NCBI GenBank assembly: GCA_947631645.1
Contig: CANRMD010000014.1
Coordinates: 1 to 39,113 of the forward strand
Reading direction: 5' to 3'
Origin: Candidatus Gastranaerophilales bacterium
GTDB lineage: Bacteria; Cyanobacteriota; Vampirovibrionia; Gastranaerophilales; Gastranaerophilaceae
Length of the DNA stretch: 39,113 bases
Shown here piece by piece: positions 10,512-31,854 of this stretch. The notes below the pieces were generated by a model. It did not search any database. It was not told the origin of the DNA and saw nothing but the letters and a program-made list of their open reading frames with translations. Every line of letters begins with the position of its first letter. Position 1 is the stretch's first letter. Made by a program: the position numbers and the translations under genes.

Positions 10512-11336
10512 ATGATAACAAACGAATTAAATGACAAATATAACAATTTAAAGAATTATATAAAAAGCTTAGGTTCTGTTATAGTGGCTTTTTCATCAGG
10601 AGTTGATTCAACATTTTTATTAAAAACTGCTCAAGATGTACTCAATGATAAAGTTATAGCTGTTACGGCATCTTCTTGTTCATTCCCGAAGCGAGAATTA
10701 AATGAAGCTATAGAGTTTTGCAAAAAAAATAATATCAAACACTTTGTTATAGAATCTGAAGAACTGGATATTGACGGTTTTAAAAATAATCCTCCAAATC
10801 GTTGTTATCTTTGCAAAAAGGAACTTTTTACAAAAATAAAAAAAATAGCACAAGAAAATAATACCGAAAATATTATAGAAGGTTCAAATCTCGATGATAA
10901 CGGAGATTACCGCCCGGGGCTTATTGCGATAAAAGAATTAGATATAAAAAGCCCTCTGAGATATGCAAAACTTTCTAAAAATGACATAAGACTTCTATCT
11001 AAAGAATTAAACCTTAATACTTATGATAAACCCTCTTTTGCTTGTTTGGCATCAAGATTTCCCTACGGGGAAATGATAACCAAAGAAAAATTACAAATGG
11101 TTGAAAGAGCAGAGCAGTTTTTGCTTGATTTGGGTTTTAAACAAGTAAGAGTCCGCATTCATAACCTTATGGCTCGTATAGAAATAGAAGAAACAGAATT
11201 TGAAAAATTAATACAAAAACATACAAGAGATGAGGTTGTAAAAAAATTTCAAGAATTAGGTTTCACCTATATATCTATGGACTTAAAAGGCTATAGAACA
11301 GGCAGTATGAATGAAGTTATTACGGTTTTAACATAA
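10512..11336 (+). CDS. larE: LarE-type ATP-dependent sacrificial sulfur transferase
   Basis: LarE activates and thiolates the nicotinic-acid-derived precursor of the nickel-pincer cofactor of lactate racemase. The 274-residue protein has the PP-loop SSGVDST (residues 28-34) and the family signature KPSFACLASRFPYG, in which C177 matches the sacrificial cysteine near position 176 of the Lactobacillus enzyme. Two more cysteines form CYLC (C97, C100). Some LarE proteins with three cysteines bind a 4Fe-4S cluster and can work catalytically, and this one has that arrangement. No larA, larB or larC is present in the window, so its actual target is open. A strong GGAGG at 10503-10507 fixes the ATG. 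Confidence 0.9.
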   Translation: MITNELNDKYNNLKNYIKSLGSVIVAFSSGVDSTFLLKTAQDVLNDKVIAVTASSCSFPKRELNEAIEFCKKNNIKHFVIESEELDIDGFKNNPPNRCYLCKKELFTKIKKIAQENNTENIIEGSNLDDNGDYRPGLIAIKELDIKSPLRYAKLSKNDIRLLSKELNLNTYDKPSFACLASRFPYGEMITKEKLQMVERAEQFLLDLGFKQVRVRIHNLMARIEIEETEFEKLIQKHTRDEVVKKFQELGFTYISMDLKGYRTGSMNEVITVLT

Positions 11337-14300
11337 TTCTTGAGTAATCATATTTTTTTCTGTCTATTTTAGGATAATAAGACGAAGTTACATCTCCTAA
11401 GATATAATTTAAACCGAATTGGAAACCGATACCGTTAATGCCTGCATTACGCAATGTAAGTTGTCCGTACAGTCCTAATTTATCTTTTATAACTTTAGTT
11501 CCGCCTAATCCGTATTGAATATATCCGTGATCCATGTGAAGTTTGGGAAGATTTACATTTCCCGCCATTCCGTCAATACCGTCATTAATAAAGAACATAT
11601 ATTGGAAAGTGGCATATAAACTCCAAGTTCTTTTTGCCAAAATTAAATTTAACCCCGGAGCAGCATTAAATGCATTCAACATGCCCGAGTTCATGCTCAT
11701 TTCACCGAAATCGGTACCCCAATTTTGTTTGCCGAATAAATTATATGAAGCAAATACATTTGGCTGGAATATAAAATCTTCAAACGGATGGAAGTTATAT
11801 GCAGATTTAATTACTGCACCCGTGTACCAATTACCTGCATTATCTCTATATACATCAACATCCATATCATTCATATAACCGCCGCCATATACCGCAACAG
11901 AAGTTACAGAATCATTATGTCCTATAAATGTACCCATTAAACCCAGTTGTCCGCCTTCTTGGTTCATTCTTACATCTTTATAATGTTGTCTTCCGCCGTT
12001 ATATGCCATAAATACTGTAGGAATGAATTTCCAATTATTATTGATATCCGCAGCTTTAAAATCAGCACCGACTAATGTACCCCAAACATTTGAACCCACA
12101 TCAAGATTATGTGTCATATCCAATCTGTTGAATGAAGCATATGTTTTTGCCCATAGTCCGCCATTTTCGTAGGTTTTTTGATAAGGAACAAATAAACTTT
12201 GAGCATCCGCATATTTATTAGCATTTTTAGCATTGTCAATAAATCTTTCCTCATGCAATACAAAGTGATTTGTAAGTATATCATCAAACATCACTTGGTT
12301 AGTATATGCTGCAAGAGTTGCGGCTTGACCTCTGTATGTATGAGGGTTAACGGTATCTAAATATGCTCTATATCGTCCGTTCCCAATCGCTTGTAAACCG
12401 TATGTGCCGATTGGAGTATCTTTTAATGCATTTGATGCACTAAAAGTTATATCTCCGTTTATGTCTCCGTCAAATAGTTGAAGTTCAACAGTTTCATCAA
12501 TCGGAGCCTTTCCTAAGAAATCAAAGTCGTATACGTTTAATTGTGCATTTGACGCGTTAAGACTGTCAAATTTAAATGTATCAGCTTTTCTCGCACGAGG
12601 GTCAATATCTACCGTAAAGTTAGCATTGTCTGAAATGTCAACATTTCTTGCCTCTATAGATTTTATTTCTCCGTTTTTCAATGCGAAAACTGCATTTTCA
12701 GACATTTTTAAGTTATCAGCGTAAAATTCTTGTACGGCTTTTCCGAGCATCAAACTTGAATTATTTTTAATTTCTACATTTCCGCCTTTTATATAACTGT
12801 CATTACCGGTAATTGATACTTTAGAGTTTTCATCCAACACAAAATTTCCGCCTGTCTGCTGAAGTCCGCCGCCTTGTTCCGTTGAATTTTCTATCCCTTT
12901 AGCTGTAAGAGTTCCACCCTCATTTTTTATTAATCCGTGCCATTTATCATTTGTTTCTTCATCCAGATTAAATTTTCCGCTTTTTAAATCAACAGTTGCA
13001 CCTTTTTGTATATCTACAGCAACGGCATCTTGAACGTCACTTGGCTCGACTATTGTTAATATTGAATCACTTAAAAGATTTAAGTTGCCCTTTGTCGCCG
13101 TCAATGTTCCGTCTATTGATTTCATACCGTAATCAAAAGTACCGCCGTCTAAATTAACGTTACCTGACCATGTATCCGCATAATCCCCGTCATTAAGAGT
13201 TAATTCTCCGCCTGTTTGAACATTAACCGTCGAATCTTTTTCTATATTAACCACAGCTTTTCTGTGCACAAATGAACCATAGTCTCCTTGCTGATTTAAT
13301 GATACATTTGAGCCTCCGGTTATATTGACATTACCGCTTTGTGCTTGTAATAATCCGTTAGTAGAGGCATCTCTTGTTTGCATCGAAGAAGATGCATTAT
13401 ATCCGTCAATATTTAATGTGCCTGTTGAATCATCAAGAATTAATATATTTCCGCTCCACTTATCATTATTATCAACGCTGAATGTTCCGTTATTGTCTAT
13501 AATGACATTTGAATTTTCCTGTATATCTGTTTGTACTTCTTTTGCAACTTTACTGTTTTCATTAATCGTCAAATTTGATTCATTTTTTAATGTTAATTTA
13601 CCGCCTGTAGCATCAAGTTTTCCGTTTGATTTTACGGAGTCAAGAGTTAAAGAGCCATTGGATAAACCGACTTTCCCCAGCCAATTTGAACCGTTTCCGA
13701 GCGTTATATCAGCACCCGCAACGTCAAGTTCCCCGTTTGAATATATATTTGTTTGAGCGGCTTCTGATATTGAACTTCCCTCTTTAAATGTTAATTTGCC
13801 GGCATGTTCTGTTCCGTCACCTATATTTAATGTTCCGCCGTTAACTTTTAATGTTGCACCGTCAACTAAATCATCCTGACTCATCCAGTTCAAAATACCA
13901 TCTTCAATTGTGGAATTTCCGCCAAAGAACTTTCCGAAAACATTTGTTTTAACATCATCAGAATATAGACTGCCATCATCTTTTTTACTTTGAGTAAATG
14001 TACCTTTGAATCCTGATGCATCACCTGATAACAACAATCCGCCTTTATTTGTAATTGAAGCATTATTACCGTCTGAACCGCTTGTAACTGTTGAACCTTG
14101 TGCAAAATCCAAATAACCGCCGTTAGATAAACTTCCTTTGTTTTCTAATTGTTTGCTGATATATAAATTGCCGTTGTTTTTAGCATTAGAAGCAGTGTTA
14201 TTAACAAAAGAATTACTTACAGTATTATTACCGCTAAAGTTTGCCTCAGCATTATTTGTTAAATCGGTTATAGTGTTTTTACCGCCGAATGTAACTGTCG

Positions 14301-17300
14301 CATCAGCTTCATTAGTAAATTTTGTAATTAAACTGCCTTGTTCTCCATCTAAGTTATCACTGTGGAATGTAAAATTACCTTTATTTGTAATATCACTTTC
14401 AAAATTATTAGAACCGAGTACATTAGCTTCACCGGCATTATATATATCATTTTTGGCAGAATTATTCATACCCTCAACTATGACATCTTCAAGAACCATA
14501 TGTCCTTGTGAATCATTATATATAGCTCCTCCTAATGAAGAAGAACTGTTAGAAGAGAATTTAGCGTTATGGACATATAACCCCGTATAATTTTCCGATG
14601 TATGTTCACCGCCCGAACCTCCGTTATTATATATTGCACCGCCCTTTTCGGCACTTGAAGAATTACCTTCAACTATAACGTTATCAAGTACAACCTGTGA
14701 AGTTTCACTGTTATTTTTAAGAACCGAGCCTCCCGTACCACTTTCATCCGCTGCAATATCAGCATCTTTAACAGTTAAATTTCTTACCATCAATTTTGTA
14801 TTAACATCTTCATCAATATCAAAGAAGTGTCCCTTATTATCCGTAATTTGACTACCCTGAATTAATTTACCTGATAATACACTGTCTTGTGCATTTGCAT
14901 TTTTACCAGATACCGTAAATCTTCCCTCTGTTGTTTTCCCCAGAGAACTATCTATATGATAATCAGTATCATCACCTTCCGAAAATTGGAAAAATCTGTC
15001 TTGACCTTTTCCGCTATTCATATCAGATAATGAATTTGAATCAGCTTGTCCTGAAACTTTTAACGTAACGCCTCTTCCATCTTCATTAACATCTAGGTCA
15101 TAAGTATATTTTGTAGTTGCACCTTGTATGGTTCCGTCTCCCGAGAGAGTTAAAGAACCTTCTCCCCTTATAACACCCTCATTATCTTTGGTTGAATATT
15201 TTTGACCTCTTGTTGCATTTTCTTCACCGGAAATGAATACCGAAGCTAAAGAAAGACTGCCTGATGAGTTTTGACCGACAGTTAATGAATCGGTTGCAAG
15301 ATAGTCCGTATCTCCGTTTGTAATGTGTACATTAAAATCAATACTGCTGTTTTCAGATTTTAAACTGTCAAATATATAATCATGAAGAACGCTTGAATGG
15401 TCGCCGTCACTTAATTCACCAAGTTTTAAAACAGAATCTTTTAATGTAAAATCTTTATAATTATAATTTAAAGAGCCATCTGACCCGCTTTCAAGTTTAA
15501 GTTCAGCATTACTAAATGCAATATTGTTATCATTAGAACCTTGAATACCGCTTTTTAAAGTAAAAGTTGATTTCTCGTTACCCTCAAAACCTTTAAATGA
15601 AGCAGTTGCACCAGTCCCGGCAAATTGGAGTAAATCTTCTGAAATTATACCGCCTGACATGTCATAAGTTGTATAATCAAACTTCGTATTACTACCAAGT
15701 TTAACAACACCGTTATAATCCAATCTGTCGGCTGTAACAGTTAAACTTCCTGATTTTATATCCTTTTCACCGCTAAATAATTTAGCATTAGAACTTTTAC
15801 TTGTAGTAACAGTTGTTGAACCATCATTTTGAACATATTTACCTGTATAACCCGAAGCATCTCCATTAATTGTAACATTTCCTCCGTTGTTGTGGATTTC
15901 ACCGCCGTTCCCCGTTATAGTTCCTGATATTGATAAATCAGAAGAGGTTGTAATGTTTCCGTGGTTTTCCACATCAGATAATGAACCGCCTAAAAATGTT
16001 ATATTAGCGTTAGTTTGATTAGTTAATTTCCCACTAGCCGTTATATTACCTTGCGTTGTAATTGTACCTGAATTTTCAACTTCTTGAAGATTAGCACTTC
16101 CAAACGTAACATTAGCATCGGAATTATTGGTTAATTTCCCCGATGCACTTAACAAATCAGTAACATTTATTGTACCCGAATTTTCTATCGTACCTTGAAC
16201 ATTAAGTGAATTAACTCTTAATTGTGCTTTGTTTGTATTTGAAAGAAGATGTTTTCCGTTAAAATCTTCACCCGTACCGTTCAAAGTAAGTTTCCCGGAA
16301 GCATCAAATTGACTTTGGTTTTCCAATGCTCCAAAAGTCATATCATTACCTTGAATGGTTCCGAAATTGCTCACTGTATTACTAACGGTAAAAGCACCGT
16401 TTGCATTACGCATATCAACAGTTCCGCTGTTTGTAAGATTTTTTAAATTTAAACTTCCCGAGCCGGTGCTTGTTATGGTTCCGTTTTCATTTTCAACAGT
16501 TTCAATTGTTATATCACCCGTATTATCAATTCTTCCGGCATTTTTTAAATTTGTTCCAGAAAGTGTTCCTAAATTTAAGATTTCACCGTCTGATTTATTT
16601 TCATTTGTTAAACCTTCAAGTTTTAAATTACCCTTATTGTTAATTTTTCCGCTGTTTTCAAGACCATTTGTTCCTTGTACAACAATTGTTTTGCCATAAT
16701 CGTTTACAACAGAATAAAAGTCATCAGCTTTATTAGCATTTTGAATTTTTAATCCGCCTGTAAATTCTGTGTTATTAGCATTATTTGAAACTTTGGCATT
16801 GTTTGATACCACCGTTTGACCCGTAATTTTATTATTTGAACCGTTTATATTAAGTTCTTTAATGCCTGTTCCGTTAATGTTTACAGTTGCAGAAGAAGCT
16901 GCAGCAATATAATCAGTCAAATTCAATATTAATCCCGAATTTTGTGCAGTTTCAGCCGCTATTGACTCTAAAGAAGTATCATTATCAAAATTTAATAAAT
17001 TAACTACAGAGTTATTTCTTGAACCGAATTTAATCGTTGAAGCTATACCTGATTTATTTCCCTCATCTCTGTTTGAGCCGTCAAGTGTTAAATTTATTCC
17101 GTCAATAACAAACTTTCCGTTTCCTTTAATATGTTTTTCTAAAGTAACATCCCCTAAATTATATAAAGTCAAAGTTCCGTGGTCACTAACGGTAATATCA
17201 ATTGTTTGTGACAAAACTGAATTTGATTTTTTTAAGGTTAAATTAGCCTCGTTTGTTCCGTCACCAACAACAAGTTTTGTATTGTTTTGCAGTTCAAGTA

Positions 17301-18072
17301 AGGTTTTAACACTTGTACCCGTGGAATCATATAAATCATTTTTTGTATACCAATGTAGTTCTCCATCTTTGAATGTTGATTTACCATGAAAGAATGTAGC
17401 ATCTTTTTTTAATTCAAAAACCCCGGACTCGTTAACAAAATTTCCGCTATATAAACTATTAATACCTCCGACTTCAAGTTTTGAAGCACCTTTATGTGTT
17501 ACGGTGCCGTATCCCGAAAGTCCTGCGTCGAGAGTAACTTTTCCGCCCGTGCCGTTTATCTCTGTTGTTGCATCTTGATCAACATATATATCTCCACCGC
17601 CACCGCGTCTATCTGTACCATTACCTGTAAAAATTACGTTTTTCCCATCTTCAGCAGTAATTGTTAACTTACCGCTGTTTCTTATAACTGCACCGAATAC
17701 TACACCTGATGAACCCTTAAAATCTTTAAAGGTAACATTTTTTAACGTTAGACTGCTGCCTTTATTTACATTAAATGCATCACGATTAAATGAACTTTGA
17801 ATTTCTTTTGCTTGAGTAAATGTTGCATGAGAAGAATCTCCATCCTTAGCTCCTTGAATTGTGATATCAACATTATTAACCTCTTCGGTGCTTTTCCCTA
17901 AATCTATTGTTCCGTTAAATTCTATATCTTGCTTTACTTTTATATCAGAATTTGAATTAACTTTTTCTTTTAATTCATCATACGAACTGACATCTTCCGC
18001 AAAAACACAAGATGTGGTTATTAACATTGCACAAAGCAATGAAGCAGCATTTAGTTTCCAATTCCTTTTCAA
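11320..18072 (-). CDS. Giant autotransporter adhesin-like protein (type V secretion)
   Basis: The protein has 2250 residues. It starts at a TTG with GAGAGG eight bases upstream, giving a good signal peptide (about 25 residues, cut after VFA). The long passenger is rich in Asn, Gly, Ser and Thr and is built of short beta-helix-type repeats such as 'NSGTI' and 'GNIT'. A middle section near residues 1140-1190 has Pmp-like GGAIYN and FSSN motifs. A linker (about 1910-1965) and a C-terminal beta-barrel (about 1965-2230) begin with GLWAKTYASF and end at GFQFGLNYILG. About 20 extra residues follow, ending in Pro, whereas most autotransporters end in an aromatic residue. It is probably displayed on the cell surface, and adhesion is an inference. 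The stop overlaps larE by 17 bp. Confidence 0.88.
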   Translation of the reverse strand: MKRNWKLNAASLLCAMLITTSCVFAEDVSSYDELKEKVNSNSDIKVKQDIEFNGTIDLGKSTEEVNNVDITIQGAKDGDSSHATFTQAKEIQSSFNRDAFNVNKGSSLTLKNVTFKDFKGSSGVVFGAVIRNSGKLTITAEDGKNVIFTGNGTDRRGGGGDIYVDQDATTEINGTGGKVTLDAGLSGYGTVTHKGASKLEVGGINSLYSGNFVNESGVFELKKDATFFHGKSTFKDGELHWYTKNDLYDSTGTSVKTLLELQNNTKLVVGDGTNEANLTLKKSNSVLSQTIDITVSDHGTLTLYNLGDVTLEKHIKGNGKFVIDGINLTLDGSNRDEGNKSGIASTIKFGSRNNSVVNLLNFDNDTSLESIAAETAQNSGLILNLTDYIAAASSATVNINGTGIKELNINGSNNKITGQTVVSNNAKVSNNANNTEFTGGLKIQNANKADDFYSVVNDYGKTIVVQGTNGLENSGKINNKGNLKLEGLTNENKSDGEILNLGTLSGTNLKNAGRIDNTGDITIETVENENGTITSTGSGSLNLKNLTNSGTVDMRNANGAFTVSNTVSNFGTIQGNDMTFGALENQSQFDASGKLTLNGTGEDFNGKHLLSNTNKAQLRVNSLNVQGTIENSGTINVTDLLSASGKLTNNSDANVTFGSANLQEVENSGTITTQGNITASGKLTNQTNANITFLGGSLSDVENHGNITTSSDLSISGTITGNGGEIHNNGGNVTINGDASGYTGKYVQNDGSTTVTTSKSSNAKLFSGEKDIKSGSLTVTADRLDYNGVVKLGSNTKFDYTTYDMSGGIISEDLLQFAGTGATASFKGFEGNEKSTFTLKSGIQGSNDNNIAFSNAELKLESGSDGSLNYNYKDFTLKDSVLKLGELSDGDHSSVLHDYIFDSLKSENSSIDFNVHITNGDTDYLATDSLTVGQNSSGSLSLASVFISGEENATRGQKYSTKDNEGVIRGEGSLTLSGDGTIQGATTKYTYDLDVNEDGRGVTLKVSGQADSNSLSDMNSGKGQDRFFQFSEGDDTDYHIDSSLGKTTEGRFTVSGKNANAQDSVLSGKLIQGSQITDNKGHFFDIDEDVNTKLMVRNLTVKDADIAADESGTGGSVLKNNSETSQVVLDNVIVEGNSSSAEKGGAIYNNGGSGGEHTSENYTGLYVHNAKFSSNSSSSLGGAIYNDSQGHMVLEDVIVEGMNNSAKNDIYNAGEANVLGSNNFESDITNKGNFTFHSDNLDGEQGSLITKFTNEADATVTFGGKNTITDLTNNAEANFSGNNTVSNSFVNNTASNAKNNGNLYISKQLENKGSLSNGGYLDFAQGSTVTSGSDGNNASITNKGGLLLSGDASGFKGTFTQSKKDDGSLYSDDVKTNVFGKFFGGNSTIEDGILNWMSQDDLVDGATLKVNGGTLNIGDGTEHAGKLTFKEGSSISEAAQTNIYSNGELDVAGADITLGNGSNWLGKVGLSNGSLTLDSVKSNGKLDATGGKLTLKNESNLTINENSKVAKEVQTDIQENSNVIIDNNGTFSVDNNDKWSGNILILDDSTGTLNIDGYNASSSMQTRDASTNGLLQAQSGNVNITGGSNVSLNQQGDYGSFVHRKAVVNIEKDSTVNVQTGGELTLNDGDYADTWSGNVNLDGGTFDYGMKSIDGTLTATKGNLNLLSDSILTIVEPSDVQDAVAVDIQKGATVDLKSGKFNLDEETNDKWHGLIKNEGGTLTAKGIENSTEQGGGLQQTGGNFVLDENSKVSITGNDSYIKGGNVEIKNNSSLMLGKAVQEFYADNLKMSENAVFALKNGEIKSIEARNVDISDNANFTVDIDPRARKADTFKFDSLNASNAQLNVYDFDFLGKAPIDETVELQLFDGDINGDITFSASNALKDTPIGTYGLQAIGNGRYRAYLDTVNPHTYRGQAATLAAYTNQVMFDDILTNHFVLHEERFIDNAKNANKYADAQSLFVPYQKTYENGGLWAKTYASFNRLDMTHNLDVGSNVWGTLVGADFKAADINNNWKFIPTVFMAYNGGRQHYKDVRMNQEGGQLGLMGTFIGHNDSVTSVAVYGGGYMNDMDVDVYRDNAGNWYTGAVIKSAYNFHPFEDFIFQPNVFASYNLFGKQNWGTDFGEMSMNSGMLNAFNAAPGLNLILAKRTWSLYATFQYMFFINDGIDGMAGNVNLPKLHMDHGYIQYGLGGTKVIKDKLGLYGQLTLRNAGINGIGFQFGLNYILGDVTSSYYPKIDRKKYDYSRIMLKP
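12925..13700 (-). repeat. Imperfect repeats in the autotransporter passenger
   Basis: Four copies of a unit of roughly 75-97 residues can be followed by a Trp-Gly core: GSNWLGKV, NDKWSGNI, ADTWSGNV and NDKWHGLI. The coding cores lie near 13680, 13455, 13165 and 12935. Each is followed by a G-T/S-L strand and preceded by a run like 'L-N-N-S-N-L-T-I'. This is protein-level repetition with diverged DNA. Confidence 0.6.
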
Positions 18073-29058: not shown

Positions 29059-30294
29059 ATGAAAATTAATAACATTCATACAGCTATAAGTTTTATGGCA
29101 AATAAAATACCAAAGAAACAAGCCGAATACATTAACAATCATTTAATAAATTCTGACAGTGTTGATATTTTCTGTCATATAGCTACTGATGAAGATGCTT
29201 TTAACAGTGCAAAAATAATGTACGAATATCTCGCACAACAGGGAATTAAACCGAGAATACTCTGCAATAATGCTAAAGAAAATTACGGTTTTGATGAATC
29301 GGAATATGATATAATAGACCTGTCAAAAACCTCTGCTCCCAAACAAAAAGCCTCAAGTGCACTTTGTCTTGATTTTAGCGACTCGGAAAGAATACGAGGA
29401 GATGCTCTTAAATATTTAAGTCAATTTAGTAAAGATGATATATTCTTAATGGATCATCATATTCCCGTAAAATCAATTATAAAAAGTAATAAAGTAACAA
29501 CACCGACAACGGGCGAAAAAAGATTTACCACAGCTAGAAACGGATATATTGATACAACGGCACGTTCTAATGCATCAATTCTTGTAAGGTTTTTTAACGC
29601 ATTAAACATTAAAATGTCAAAATCTCAATATGAATCAGCTTATTGCGGTATGGTTGACGATATGAATAAAGCTAATCTTTTAAGTATTCAAAACGGAGAA
29701 ATAATAAAAAGCCCCGAACTTATTAGAGATAAAAATGCCGATGAAGTTTTCAATATGGTATCTGAAAATGTCAGCGAAGATAAAAAACGGGAAATTCTTT
29801 CACACCTTGATGTTCTATCCCATCTGAGCGAACAAGAACAAGCATTCAGAGAAAATTTATTCAAAAAAATAATGATTTCTGATAATAAAAAATTTGCTTA
29901 TGCAATAATTGAGCCTGATGATGAAACTTGGCAAGCAATCGGCGGAGATAATTCCACAACAAGCAAAATTTTAAGAGATTTCAGACTGAAAGTTTTAGCT
30001 CATAAAAACCCCGATAAATATATTAATCCTGAACAGATGAAAGAGCTTCAAGAAGTTGAAGCCGCTGCCGTATTCTATCCCGATTACAAAACAGGACGCT
30101 ACAGGATAAGTATTCATTCAAATAAAGATTATGCAATGAAAATTATTGAATACAACAGACAAAATTATAATAAAGATTTAATTGCAGGCGGTCACGACGA
30201 ACGAGCCGGCGGAAGCATACAGAGTCTTGACGGGAAAATCTGCTCAAAATGGATTAGAGATTTTATATTCGCAGCCCAAAATATTAATTACTGA
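29059..30294 (+). CDS. DHH-family phosphodiesterase (NrnA-like)
   Basis: This 411-residue DHH/DHHA1 protein likely cleaves nano-RNA or dinucleotides (pApA). The metal motifs are present: HIATDEDA (H40, D44, D46), DFSDSERIRG, FLMDHHIP (the DHH triad) and MVDDMNK. The C-terminal DHHA1 motif GGHDERAGGS lies at about residues 383-392. Typical NrnA proteins have about 315-340 residues, so some 70-90 residues are extra, mostly in the helical region after residue 220. No SD is visible; a TACAAT lies 6 nt before the ATG. It follows rph closely. Its end overlaps the convergent unknown gene by 11 bp. Confidence 0.83.
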   Translation: MKINNIHTAISFMANKIPKKQAEYINNHLINSDSVDIFCHIATDEDAFNSAKIMYEYLAQQGIKPRILCNNAKENYGFDESEYDIIDLSKTSAPKQKASSALCLDFSDSERIRGDALKYLSQFSKDDIFLMDHHIPVKSIIKSNKVTTPTTGEKRFTTARNGYIDTTARSNASILVRFFNALNIKMSKSQYESAYCGMVDDMNKANLLSIQNGEIIKSPELIRDKNADEVFNMVSENVSEDKKREILSHLDVLSHLSEQEQAFRENLFKKIMISDNKKFAYAIIEPDDETWQAIGGDNSTTSKILRDFRLKVLAHKNPDKYINPEQMKELQEVEAAAVFYPDYKTGRYRISIHSNKDYAMKIIEYNRQNYNKDLIAGGHDERAGGSIQSLDGKICSKWIRDFIFAAQNINY

Positions 30295-31642
30295 TTAAAT
30301 TTTCAAAATTTTTGAATATTTCAGGCTTATTCTGAGAATATATATTAAAATCATTATTCAAAGTTTTTTCTTTAAGCTGTTTATTATATCTGTATTGTGT
30401 AAATAATCTGGTAATTGCGGAAAGAGTAAAGCCCATAAAGAGTAAACTGAATGCATAAGGGACTAAAGAAATAAATGCTTTTTCTTTAGTGAGTCTTGAA
30501 AGTTCTTTAACGGGTGATGTATTTTTTACTTTTGCAATATTTTCCGCAATTTTAGGCAATTCGGCACGCAAAGGGGTTGAAAATGTGCCATCTGATGATT
30601 TCTTTAATATATCGGGGAATGCATTTTTCTTTTCCAATATTTTAGTAAAACCTTTTTCAAAAAGCTCACTTCCGAATATTGTGTAAAAAACAACTAAAGG
30701 AACCCTTGTCCAAACTTCCGCTACGTCTAATTTTCCTCTGTCTTCTGCAGCTTTAGAATAGCCAAACAATCCTAATATTGCCGTTAATGCAAGCTGACCT
30801 TTACTTAATGCCAGCTTGCCGTTATTATTAGCAAAATCAAGACTGAATTTAGATAAAATATTACTTAATTTATCCGATTTTACTCCTGTCTTTTCTATCG
30901 TATTTGCAAGTGTTTTACCCGGTTCAAGAATAGTTTTTGCCGCTTTTTGTAATCCGTCAGATTTATGCCCGAAAAGAGCCAAAGCCGTACCGAGAGCAAT
31001 TCCCGATGCAGATATTATTGCCGCTTTTTTTAGCTGTTTTTTTGAATTTTTTTCAACTCGTTCTTGCTGAGCTTTGTCTTCTTTTTCATTTTGATTTTTA
31101 TCAAGATTTGCAATATTGTTAAAATTACTTTTCTTAAATGTTTTCAGCGTAAATAAATTTTTAGCAAAGCTCAGAGTATATTCAGCAACCGGTACTATTG
31201 CACAAGCAAGTAATATTCCCGCTTTTGTTGCGATGGCACGTCTTTGTACTTCTTCAGTTAATGCAGTATTTTTAGTTATCTGCTCAACAGTTTTAGGAAG
31301 CTGTTCATTTATTTTATTTTGCAAAGCTTTTGGCTGGAAGTGTTTAAAAATACAGTTTCTGAAAAGTTTTTCACCTAAAATCGGAGTTGCAAAATAAAAT
31401 ATTGCAGATTCAATAAACTCCAAAAAACTCATCTCTGCAAAATCAGCTTTGCTTCTGGAAAATATTGCTTTCGGGAACCAGTTTGTTGCCGTATCTTGTA
31501 TAAATCTTGTTGAAGATAAATTCTCCTGTGATTTTAAAAATATATCAGCTGCTTTTGCAACGTCCGTAAGGTTTGAAGTTATTCCTTTAAATGATTGTTT
31601 GTTGTTATTTTTATTATTTAATTTTTCATTAAGTGTTATCAT
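30284..31642 (-). CDS. Unknown multi-pass protein, lineage-restricted looking
   Basis: I do not recognise this 452-residue protein. It has no signal peptide. The N-terminus is Asn/Lys-rich (KLNNKNNNKQ) and then SFKG at residues 17-20. Hydrophobic segments occur at about 141-160, 207-224, 283-295, 314-327 and 405-425, separated by Lys-rich helices with predicted coiled-coil character (EKEDKAQQERVEKNSKKQLK, about 186-205). It could be an integral membrane scaffold protein. The ATG at 31642 has an AGAGG SD. It lies just past the terminator of the mini-gene at 31718-31807. Confidence 0.7.
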   Translation of the reverse strand: MITLNEKLNNKNNNKQSFKGITSNLTDVAKAADIFLKSQENLSSTRFIQDTATNWFPKAIFSRSKADFAEMSFLEFIESAIFYFATPILGEKLFRNCIFKHFQPKALQNKINEQLPKTVEQITKNTALTEEVQRRAIATKAGILLACAIVPVAEYTLSFAKNLFTLKTFKKSNFNNIANLDKNQNEKEDKAQQERVEKNSKKQLKKAAIISASGIALGTALALFGHKSDGLQKAAKTILEPGKTLANTIEKTGVKSDKLSNILSKFSLDFANNNGKLALSKGQLALTAILGLFGYSKAAEDRGKLDVAEVWTRVPLVVFYTIFGSELFEKGFTKILEKKNAFPDILKKSSDGTFSTPLRAELPKIAENIAKVKNTSPVKELSRLTKEKAFISLVPYAFSLLFMGFTLSAITRLFTQYRYNKQLKEKTLNNDFNIYSQNKPEIFKNFENLISN

Positions 31643-31670
31643 AATTACCTCTGTTTAAAACTGCAAACTA

Positions 31671-31697
31671 AAAAAGCTGCCTATTCAGGCAGCTTTT
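31671..31697 (-). terminator. Rho-independent terminator of the Met-rich mini-gene
   Basis: The stem AAAAGCTGCC/GGCAGCTTTT (10 bp) has a 6-nt loop. In the minus direction it ends in a run of five or six T's, so it ends transcripts leaving the small ORF at 31718-31807, before the start of the unknown gene at 31642. Confidence 0.85.
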
Positions 31698-31717
31698 AAA
31701 TTATTTTAAACGAGGTT

Positions 31718-31807
31718 TCACATTCGCACAAAACAATGACTGCCTGACCCTAAGCCTTGCATTTGCATCATCATATTCATCATCATTTGTACGAAATTGT
31801 TTATCAT
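31718..31807 (-). CDS. 29-residue methionine-rich small protein (candidate)
   Basis: A short ORF of 29 codons starts at the ATG at 31807 and ends in TGA at 31718. The peptide holds nine Met, including two MMM triplets at residues 8-10 and 12-14, then M16 and a GLGSGSHC segment (18-25) and a C-terminal Met. An AAGGA SD lies 6 nt before the ATG. A TTGACA box is upstream and a strong terminator is downstream. The whole unit is about 150 nt and independent of its neighbours. The run of ATG codons could also be chance in a small RNA. Met- and His/Cys-rich composition would suit soft-metal binding, but this is speculation. It is too short for a reliable family call. Confidence 0.5.
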   Translation of the reverse strand: MINNFVQMMMNMMMQMQGLGSGSHCFVRM

Positions 31808-31825
31808 TATTATTCCTTTGTTTAT

Positions 31826-31854
31826 AAGTTATCTTAATATACTTTTTTTGTCAA
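31826..31854 (-). promoter_or_regulatory. Promoter of the Met-rich mini-gene
   Basis: A perfect TTGACA occupies 31854-31849 on the minus strand, only 8 bp after the end of the cation exchanger gene. At 17-bp spacing the -10 is TAACTT (31831-31826), a weak match. A start near 31819 would give a leader of about 12 nt with the AAGGA SD. Confidence 0.5.

Follow-up and report, generated by a model that had tools for sequence, protein, structure and literature searches.

Terminator-based control of methionine genes is known from SAM riboswitches and Met T-boxes, while the ErmC and TnaC type are translational attenuators with Shine-Dalgarno (SD) sequestration. In the available part of PMC1262725, methionine genes of other species are described as lying under S-box riboswitches, and no conserved upstream RNA element was observed for the Met operons of Actinobacteria. 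The available part of PMC2965389 refers to SAM riboswitches and to a T-box that precedes a methionine transporter, and states that leader-peptide systems had, before the Firmicutes case and to the knowledge of its authors, been shown only in Proteobacteria and Actinobacteria. Among the matches listed in our search of the open-access literature, with subscription journals mostly outside its scope, we found no attenuator or leader that reads Met codons, and no codon-reading leader in Melainabacteria or Gastranaerophilales. Here we describe an element that is very probably a ribosome-mediated transcription attenuator of the trp/his type sensing methionine.

The element was found on the minus strand of the window (the whole stretch of 39,113 nucleotides analysed), and its parts can be read directly from the sequence; all coordinates given below refer to that strand. 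The predicted promoter (31826..31854) is composed of a TTGACA box (31854-31849), a 17-nt spacer and TAACTT (31831-31826). The SD sequence AAGGA (31814..31818) precedes the leader-peptide ORF (31718..31807), which encodes MINNFVQMMMNMMMQMQGLGSGSHCFVRM followed by a stop codon and contains nine Met counting the initiator. The putatively regulatory Met codons are codons 8-10, 12-14 and 16 (31760..31786), and the conserved CGAATGTG at the end of the ORF (31719..31726) is a possible RNA polymerase pause. An intrinsic terminator (regions 3:4) follows, with an 11-bp hairpin (31697-31672) and a T-run (31675-31670). The TTGACA box, AAGGA, ORF and terminator reported by an initial annotation were all confirmed in place, as was its count of nine Met. 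The hairpin is located 29 nt from the start codon (31642) of a gene on the same strand (30284..31642), which encodes an uncharacterised 452-aa protein. Because the terminator lies so close before the next same-strand gene, the unit is not a stand-alone one. Elsewhere in the window, the minus strand carries a 2250-aa ORF (11320-18072) with Asn/Gly/Ser-rich repeats and, by eye, an autotransporter-like C-terminus.

We searched for the leader region at the DNA level in 58 genomes (own, genus, order and class) and found it in 23 of the 34 same-genus genomes at E < 1e-19, with no match of this strength outside the genus. A protein search with the downstream gene in 41 genus genomes yielded 28 orthologues whose 5' end is intact, and all 28 bore the leader in the same order: a Met-rich ORF ending R-M-stop, then the terminator, then the gene. 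Eleven of the 34 genus genomes in the DNA search had no leader; ten of them had no orthologue, and in the other (G030) the orthologue was cut by the contig end. A profile built from 17 orthologues led to 76 named contigs, whose titles were mostly Gastranaerophilales, the rest being Melainabacteria, Cyanobacteria, unspecified bacteria and three other names. Records titled Muribaculaceae, Fusobacterium and Clostridia (L132, L142, L146) have the same gene and leader, which may reflect mislabelling or mixed bins. Of the 76 named loci, 74 were of the Met type; the other two (L158, L159) were Trp-led paralogues and were excluded from all Met counts. The 28 genus loci and the 76 named loci come largely from the same genomes, and their counts are not additive. 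A terminator between leader and gene was detected by scan in the window and at 73 of the 74 Met-type loci. The exception, L115, had just two Met after the initiator, and was excluded from the Met composition, terminator-pairing and folding counts. By this linkage, the leader belongs to the next gene and does not form an independent unit. It had previously been described as a self-contained small transcription unit between two unrelated genes: a small transcription unit with a translated frame does look real by prediction, but it is partnered with the next gene, whose leader it forms.

The same layout recurred across the loci. At 69 of the 72 loci scored, a TTGAC-type -35 was followed after 16-18 nt by a -10-like hexamer, with a 17-nt spacer in 64, the scoring giving such spacers a small bonus and omitting two loci whose upstream sequence was too short (L118, L146). 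An SD-like motif of at least three letters was present at 68 of the 74 leaders, a count biased upward because the start codon was picked partly by the SD. At least four Met codons after the initiator were found in the short upstream ORF of 73 of the 74 Met-type loci. In the 74 leaders (the window plus 73 loci), Met made up 554 of 2016 residues after the initiator (27.5%), with a median of 7.5 per leader and a range of 4-18, the 18-Met version being that of L112. When a fixed rule (15-52 codons, at least five Met after the initiator and at least 20% Met) was applied to the 76 named loci (632,686 bases), 71 of 27,811 ORFs qualified, and 68 of these 71 were located at the leader position.

The RNA pairings were then compared with permuted partners or shuffled letters; the permutations keep no phylogeny. 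Region 1 (UUCGUACAA, 31787..31795) and region 1' (GUCAUUGUUUUGUGCGAA, 31723..31740) are the 5' and 3' arms of a predicted ORF hairpin, in which the whole ORF folds and the arms flank or include the Met run (-22.5 kcal/mol in the window). Over 71 loci the region 1 and 1' duplexes summed to -1351.5, against -1082.6 for permuted partners (sd 22, minimum -1172.8). The folding energy of the ORF was moderately below that of dinucleotide shuffles (mean z -1.57), being below 0 in 65 and below -2 in 23 of the 71. A short hairpin located after the Met run and before region 2 showed no excess over letter shuffles (-3.46 vs -3.16 kcal/mol; lower in 30 of 63). The sequence of region 2 (UCAGGCAG, 31740..31747), within the ORF, complements that of the terminator 5' arm, CUGCCUGA. 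After identical leader/terminator pairs had been merged (74 to 70), the score with own partners was 1367.5, compared with a permuted mean of 1034.7 (sd 26.8, maximum 1130; 5000 permutations). The core pairs covary, for example as GGCAG/CUGCC, GGUAG/CUACC, GGUGG/CCACC, GGCGG/CCGCC, CAGGC/GCCUG and GCGGC/GCCGC. Of the 70 pairs, 18 had a best leader-terminator helix of only 5-6 bp, and the best helix of L103 and L112 was located at a different place. From this partner-specific complementarity, region 2 is predicted to be an antiterminator strand of the trp type.

A further helix can be formed by ACCUCGUUUAAAA, located directly after the stop codon (31704..31716), with UUUUAAACAGAGGU in the SD region of the downstream gene (31647..31660); in the window this helix encloses the terminator. 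We retained 63 of the 71 loci for its analysis, omitting short intervals. In the 34 loci that include the window's clade, taken as the leaders not ending RMC, RMQ, RMR or FRM, own partners gave -309.6, against -241.0 for permuted ones (sd 11.6, minimum -286.3). In the 29 other loci own partners were not better (-98.1 vs -106.1 permuted). We read the SD helix as an added translational control in the window's clade.

From these parts, the following mechanism can be proposed. A short mRNA with the Met-rich leader ORF would be made from the element's own promoter. With charged tRNA-Met in good supply, translation would proceed through the Met run, and the ribosome would sit on the GGCAG strand of region 2 as the terminator is being transcribed; the terminator could then fold, and transcription would stop ahead of the downstream gene. 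When methionine is short, the ribosome would stall in the Met run, opening the ORF hairpin and freeing GGCAG, which would pair with CUGCC in the 5' arm of the terminator, which would prevent the terminator and allow transcription of the downstream gene. The extra helix of the window's clade could in addition bury the downstream SD. At 73 loci (L135 was dropped) we modelled, with the ribosome footprint masked, how often the 5' arm of the terminator is paired with leader sequence while its 3' arm has yet to be transcribed. The modelled pairing was 0.73 on average with the ribosome on Met codons, 0.61 with it on the last one and 0.42 ribosome-free; it fell to 0.03 once the ribosome was 3-6 codons beyond the Met run and was 0.64 with it at the stop codon. 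The best Met position exceeded the ribosome-free state in 73 of 73 loci and the stop position in 57 of 73. These modelled values suggest that a stall on Met favours read-through, and that a ribosome over region 2 favours termination. Since the modelled ribosome at the stop codon still permits the antiterminator, the off state would have to be kinetic, a matter of timing in which the ribosome is over region 2 just as region 3 emerges. For the trp leader, the available part of PMC1183508 describes basal read-through after ribosome release at the stop codon.

The leader ORF might instead be the gene of a functional small protein, and the initial annotation had suggested soft-metal binding by its Met, His and Cys. 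The presence of an SD and a promoter would suit such a gene, as would the codon statistics of the window's clade (27 distinct C-terminal stretches, 18 codons), where diversity at codon positions 1/2/3 was 0.138/0.144/0.204 and NG86 gave dN 0.173 and dS 0.436 (314 of 351 pairs usable), although Met has no synonymous codon and dN is thereby lowered where Met is kept. The RMC clade (23 distinct stretches, 15 codons) behaved differently in this test, which the initial annotation had proposed, its codon positions varying evenly (0.275/0.318/0.272), so the C-terminal half is not conserved as protein in both clades. Soft-metal binding was not borne out: leaders have anywhere from 4 to 18 Met, neither His nor Cys is constant among them, and those HC/SGS codons that are conserved lie in RNA helices. 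The ORF is moreover linked to one downstream gene, and Trp or Ile codons replace Met in the leaders of paralogues, and we consider an independent small protein scarcely credible. The residues flanking the Met run differ among clades (MMMNMMMQMQGLGSGSHCFVRM, MMMQMMMMQSLMSGGHCYADRMC, MSSLSKIMTTMLIMQMPFCGLEFRM), a drift predicted by codon sensing and not by a conserved peptide product or an arrest motif. The latter belongs to another explanation, an arrest peptide or translational attenuator whose nascent chain, ending SGSHCFVRM-stop, would respond to a ligand by stalling near the stop codon; covering ACCUCG, the ribosome would then expose the downstream SD. In its favour, R-M is close to the leader end in 68 of the 74 leaders, the loci that include the window's clade support the anti-SD helix, and the modelled state at the stop codon also permits antitermination. 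Yet the C-terminal sequence is unconserved between clades (SGSCHM, FWAGFLR and SGMNYFVSI are examples), the codon positions of the RMC clade vary evenly, and the anti-SD helix is unsupported in the 29 other loci. The nucleotide motif CGAATGT[G/A] (CGAATGTGA) ends 64 of the 74 Met leaders; the single Ile leader also has it, read in a different frame, and it therefore seems to be kept as nucleic acid. We accordingly regard an arrest peptide as unlikely. The TGTG of this motif resembles the TGYG core of RNA polymerase pause sites, and a pause there would leave the polymerase some 40 nt downstream of the final Met codon in the run.

A metabolite-binding riboswitch or other non-coding RNA, in which the ORF would be incidental, agrees with the RNA constraint within the ORF, but not with the persistence of the frame and the Met codons despite sequence divergence. 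No Rfam leader or riboswitch family was matched at threshold in the window or 12 further loci: Phe_leader and Leu_leader remained under their gathering scores (33.5 vs 55 bits and 21.8 vs 50 bits), and the SAM riboswitch and T-box models gave no match at gathering score in the window or the further loci and, in one of the scans, none up to E 1. We judge this reading very improbable. Protein and non-coding RNA had been offered as equal readings of the unit; the frame and the RNA function both matter and hold together. What selection appears to preserve is the reading frame together with its Met codons and the RNA, and not a peptide product.

Related leaders were found upstream of paralogues of the downstream gene. 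Nine paralogues in the genus (42-44% identity) have a tandem-Trp leader upstream, such as MYSCNSNHNQAWWHLLLETGVLSWR followed by a stop codon, with 1:2, 2:3 and 3:4 partners recognised by eye. We inspected 40 further family members across the order; 31 had an ORF with WW or WWW, eight had a second kind of Met-rich leader, for example MSMAMMMGMQMMMCMPTLTCRM and a stop codon, and one (L188 (G230:C33) / L265) had the Ile-rich leader MITSLNIAIISLIIISLLDSKRLLYCECEI ending in a stop codon, with 2:3 and 3:4 partners by eye. The Trp-codon WW/WWW leaders (L068-L076, L192, L193, L195-L223) are trp-like by eye and precede paralogues almost devoid of Trp; some of them are very short (ending SWWRL-stop), with the stop codon within region 1. 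In L209, L211 and L213, a near-perfect palindrome (TTGTATCGATATATCGATACAA-like) is located before the Trp-type leader and is a possible operator. A distant paralogue had no Met-, Trp- or Ile-rich small ORF within 330 bases upstream at 8 of 8 loci, and at L081, L082 and L083 the gene just before it is presumably tatC, judged by eye. A family member was found at E <= 1e-15 in 151 of the 286 genomes drawn from the order. The amino acid that the leader is predicted to sense thus changes between paralogues.

The 452-aa protein of the window is probably membrane-bound, as suggested by its hydrophobic segments, and it matched no Pfam or NCBIfam family above the cut-off. Against Pfam, 53 family members gave scattered weak matches only, and PDB sequences gave no match to the family profile. 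The AlphaFold2 model is almost all-helical (pLDDT 83.5, pTM 0.77); searched with it, Foldseek and VIA returned no confident relative and none indicating transport. The protein is poor in Met (0.44% after the initiator, the lowest among the 30 ORFs of at least 180 aa in the window). The Met content was 0.67% in 74 Met-led proteins and 0.68% in eight proteins of the second Met-led class, compared with 2.10% in eight leaderless paralogues, 1.29% in 19 Trp-led proteins and 3.47% in the one Ile-led protein. One Met-type protein (<=380 aa) and one of nine second-class stretches were dropped from this comparison; five of the eight second-class proteins were kept as partial sequences, and the leader of one (L251) was not seen. 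A Met-poor composition fits the model, since a protein needed under methionine scarcity would be expected to spare Met. The Trp content was 0.03% in the Trp-led class and 0.11% in the leaderless class, and Ile made up 6.07% of the Ile-led protein; these compositions prove little, because paralogues without a leader are likewise poor in Trp and the Ile-led protein is not poor in Ile.

We surveyed the methionine physiology of 24 genomes (own, genus and order). The MetQ lipoprotein and the activation domain of the B12-dependent synthase were found in 0 of 24, a MetE domain in 2 of 24 and a MetH-type homocysteine methyltransferase domain in 1 of 24, giving 3 of 24 genomes with a Met-synthase domain. 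As MetQ and the Met-synthase domains are absent or rare in these genomes, methionine is likely imported by another route, for which the membrane-protein family is a candidate. Seven genomes (G004, G008, G036, G037, G038, G042, G043) had neither a family member at E <= 1e-5 nor any of the searched Met-synthase domains, so the presence of the family is not a simple substitute for methionine synthesis. G003 and G010 had the distant leaderless paralogue only and G039 a Trp-led member, none of them being of the Met type. The gene trpA was found alongside a Trp-led member in four of five tested genomes (G001, G006, G011, G013) and was absent in G039; because of this co-occurrence, the Trp-led paralogue is no substitute for Trp synthesis. 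That the downstream protein has an uptake role seems to us about as probable as the opposite. We are likewise evenly divided on the broader proposal that this unrecognised helical membrane-protein family consists of amino-acid-specific uptake or uptake-related proteins, whose own-amino-acid attenuators label their substrates (Met in two classes, Trp in a third, Ile in one), with Met-led proteins avoiding Met and the Met attenuator being the first of its kind. For a membrane-protein family of gut bacteria that has no name in the libraries searched, the leader type would allow testable predictions of what each paralogue does in the cell and, perhaps, of its substrate.

Compared with the known systems, the element differs from SAM riboswitches and Met T-boxes in that sensing would be performed by the codons of an ORF, and no such family was matched in the window. 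In the window's clade its post-stop helix can sequester the downstream SD, as in the ErmC/TnaC type, but the element has an intrinsic terminator and no nascent-chain motif is conserved across clades. With the trp, ilv and cys leaders of Actinobacteria (PMC1262725) and the hisS leaders of Firmicutes (PMC2965389), it shares comparative evidence and codon-specific leaders beyond Proteobacteria; those leaders, as far as the available parts of these reports describe them, use Trp, Cys, branched-chain and His codons, whereas Met codons are used here. The closest likeness is to the trp and his attenuators of enteric bacteria, which, in the available part of PMC1183508, also have an ORF with regulatory codons, an ORF hairpin (putative in the present element), an antiterminator competing with a terminator and a possible pause after the hairpin. 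Unlike them, the element in the window has Met as control codons, a probable membrane protein of an uncharacterised family as its target and Gastranaerophilales as hosts, and its terminator-pairing strand is located well before the stop codon, mostly by 7-12 codons. The class of mechanism is therefore known, while the Met specificity, the lineage and the target family appear, provisionally, to be new within the literature searched.
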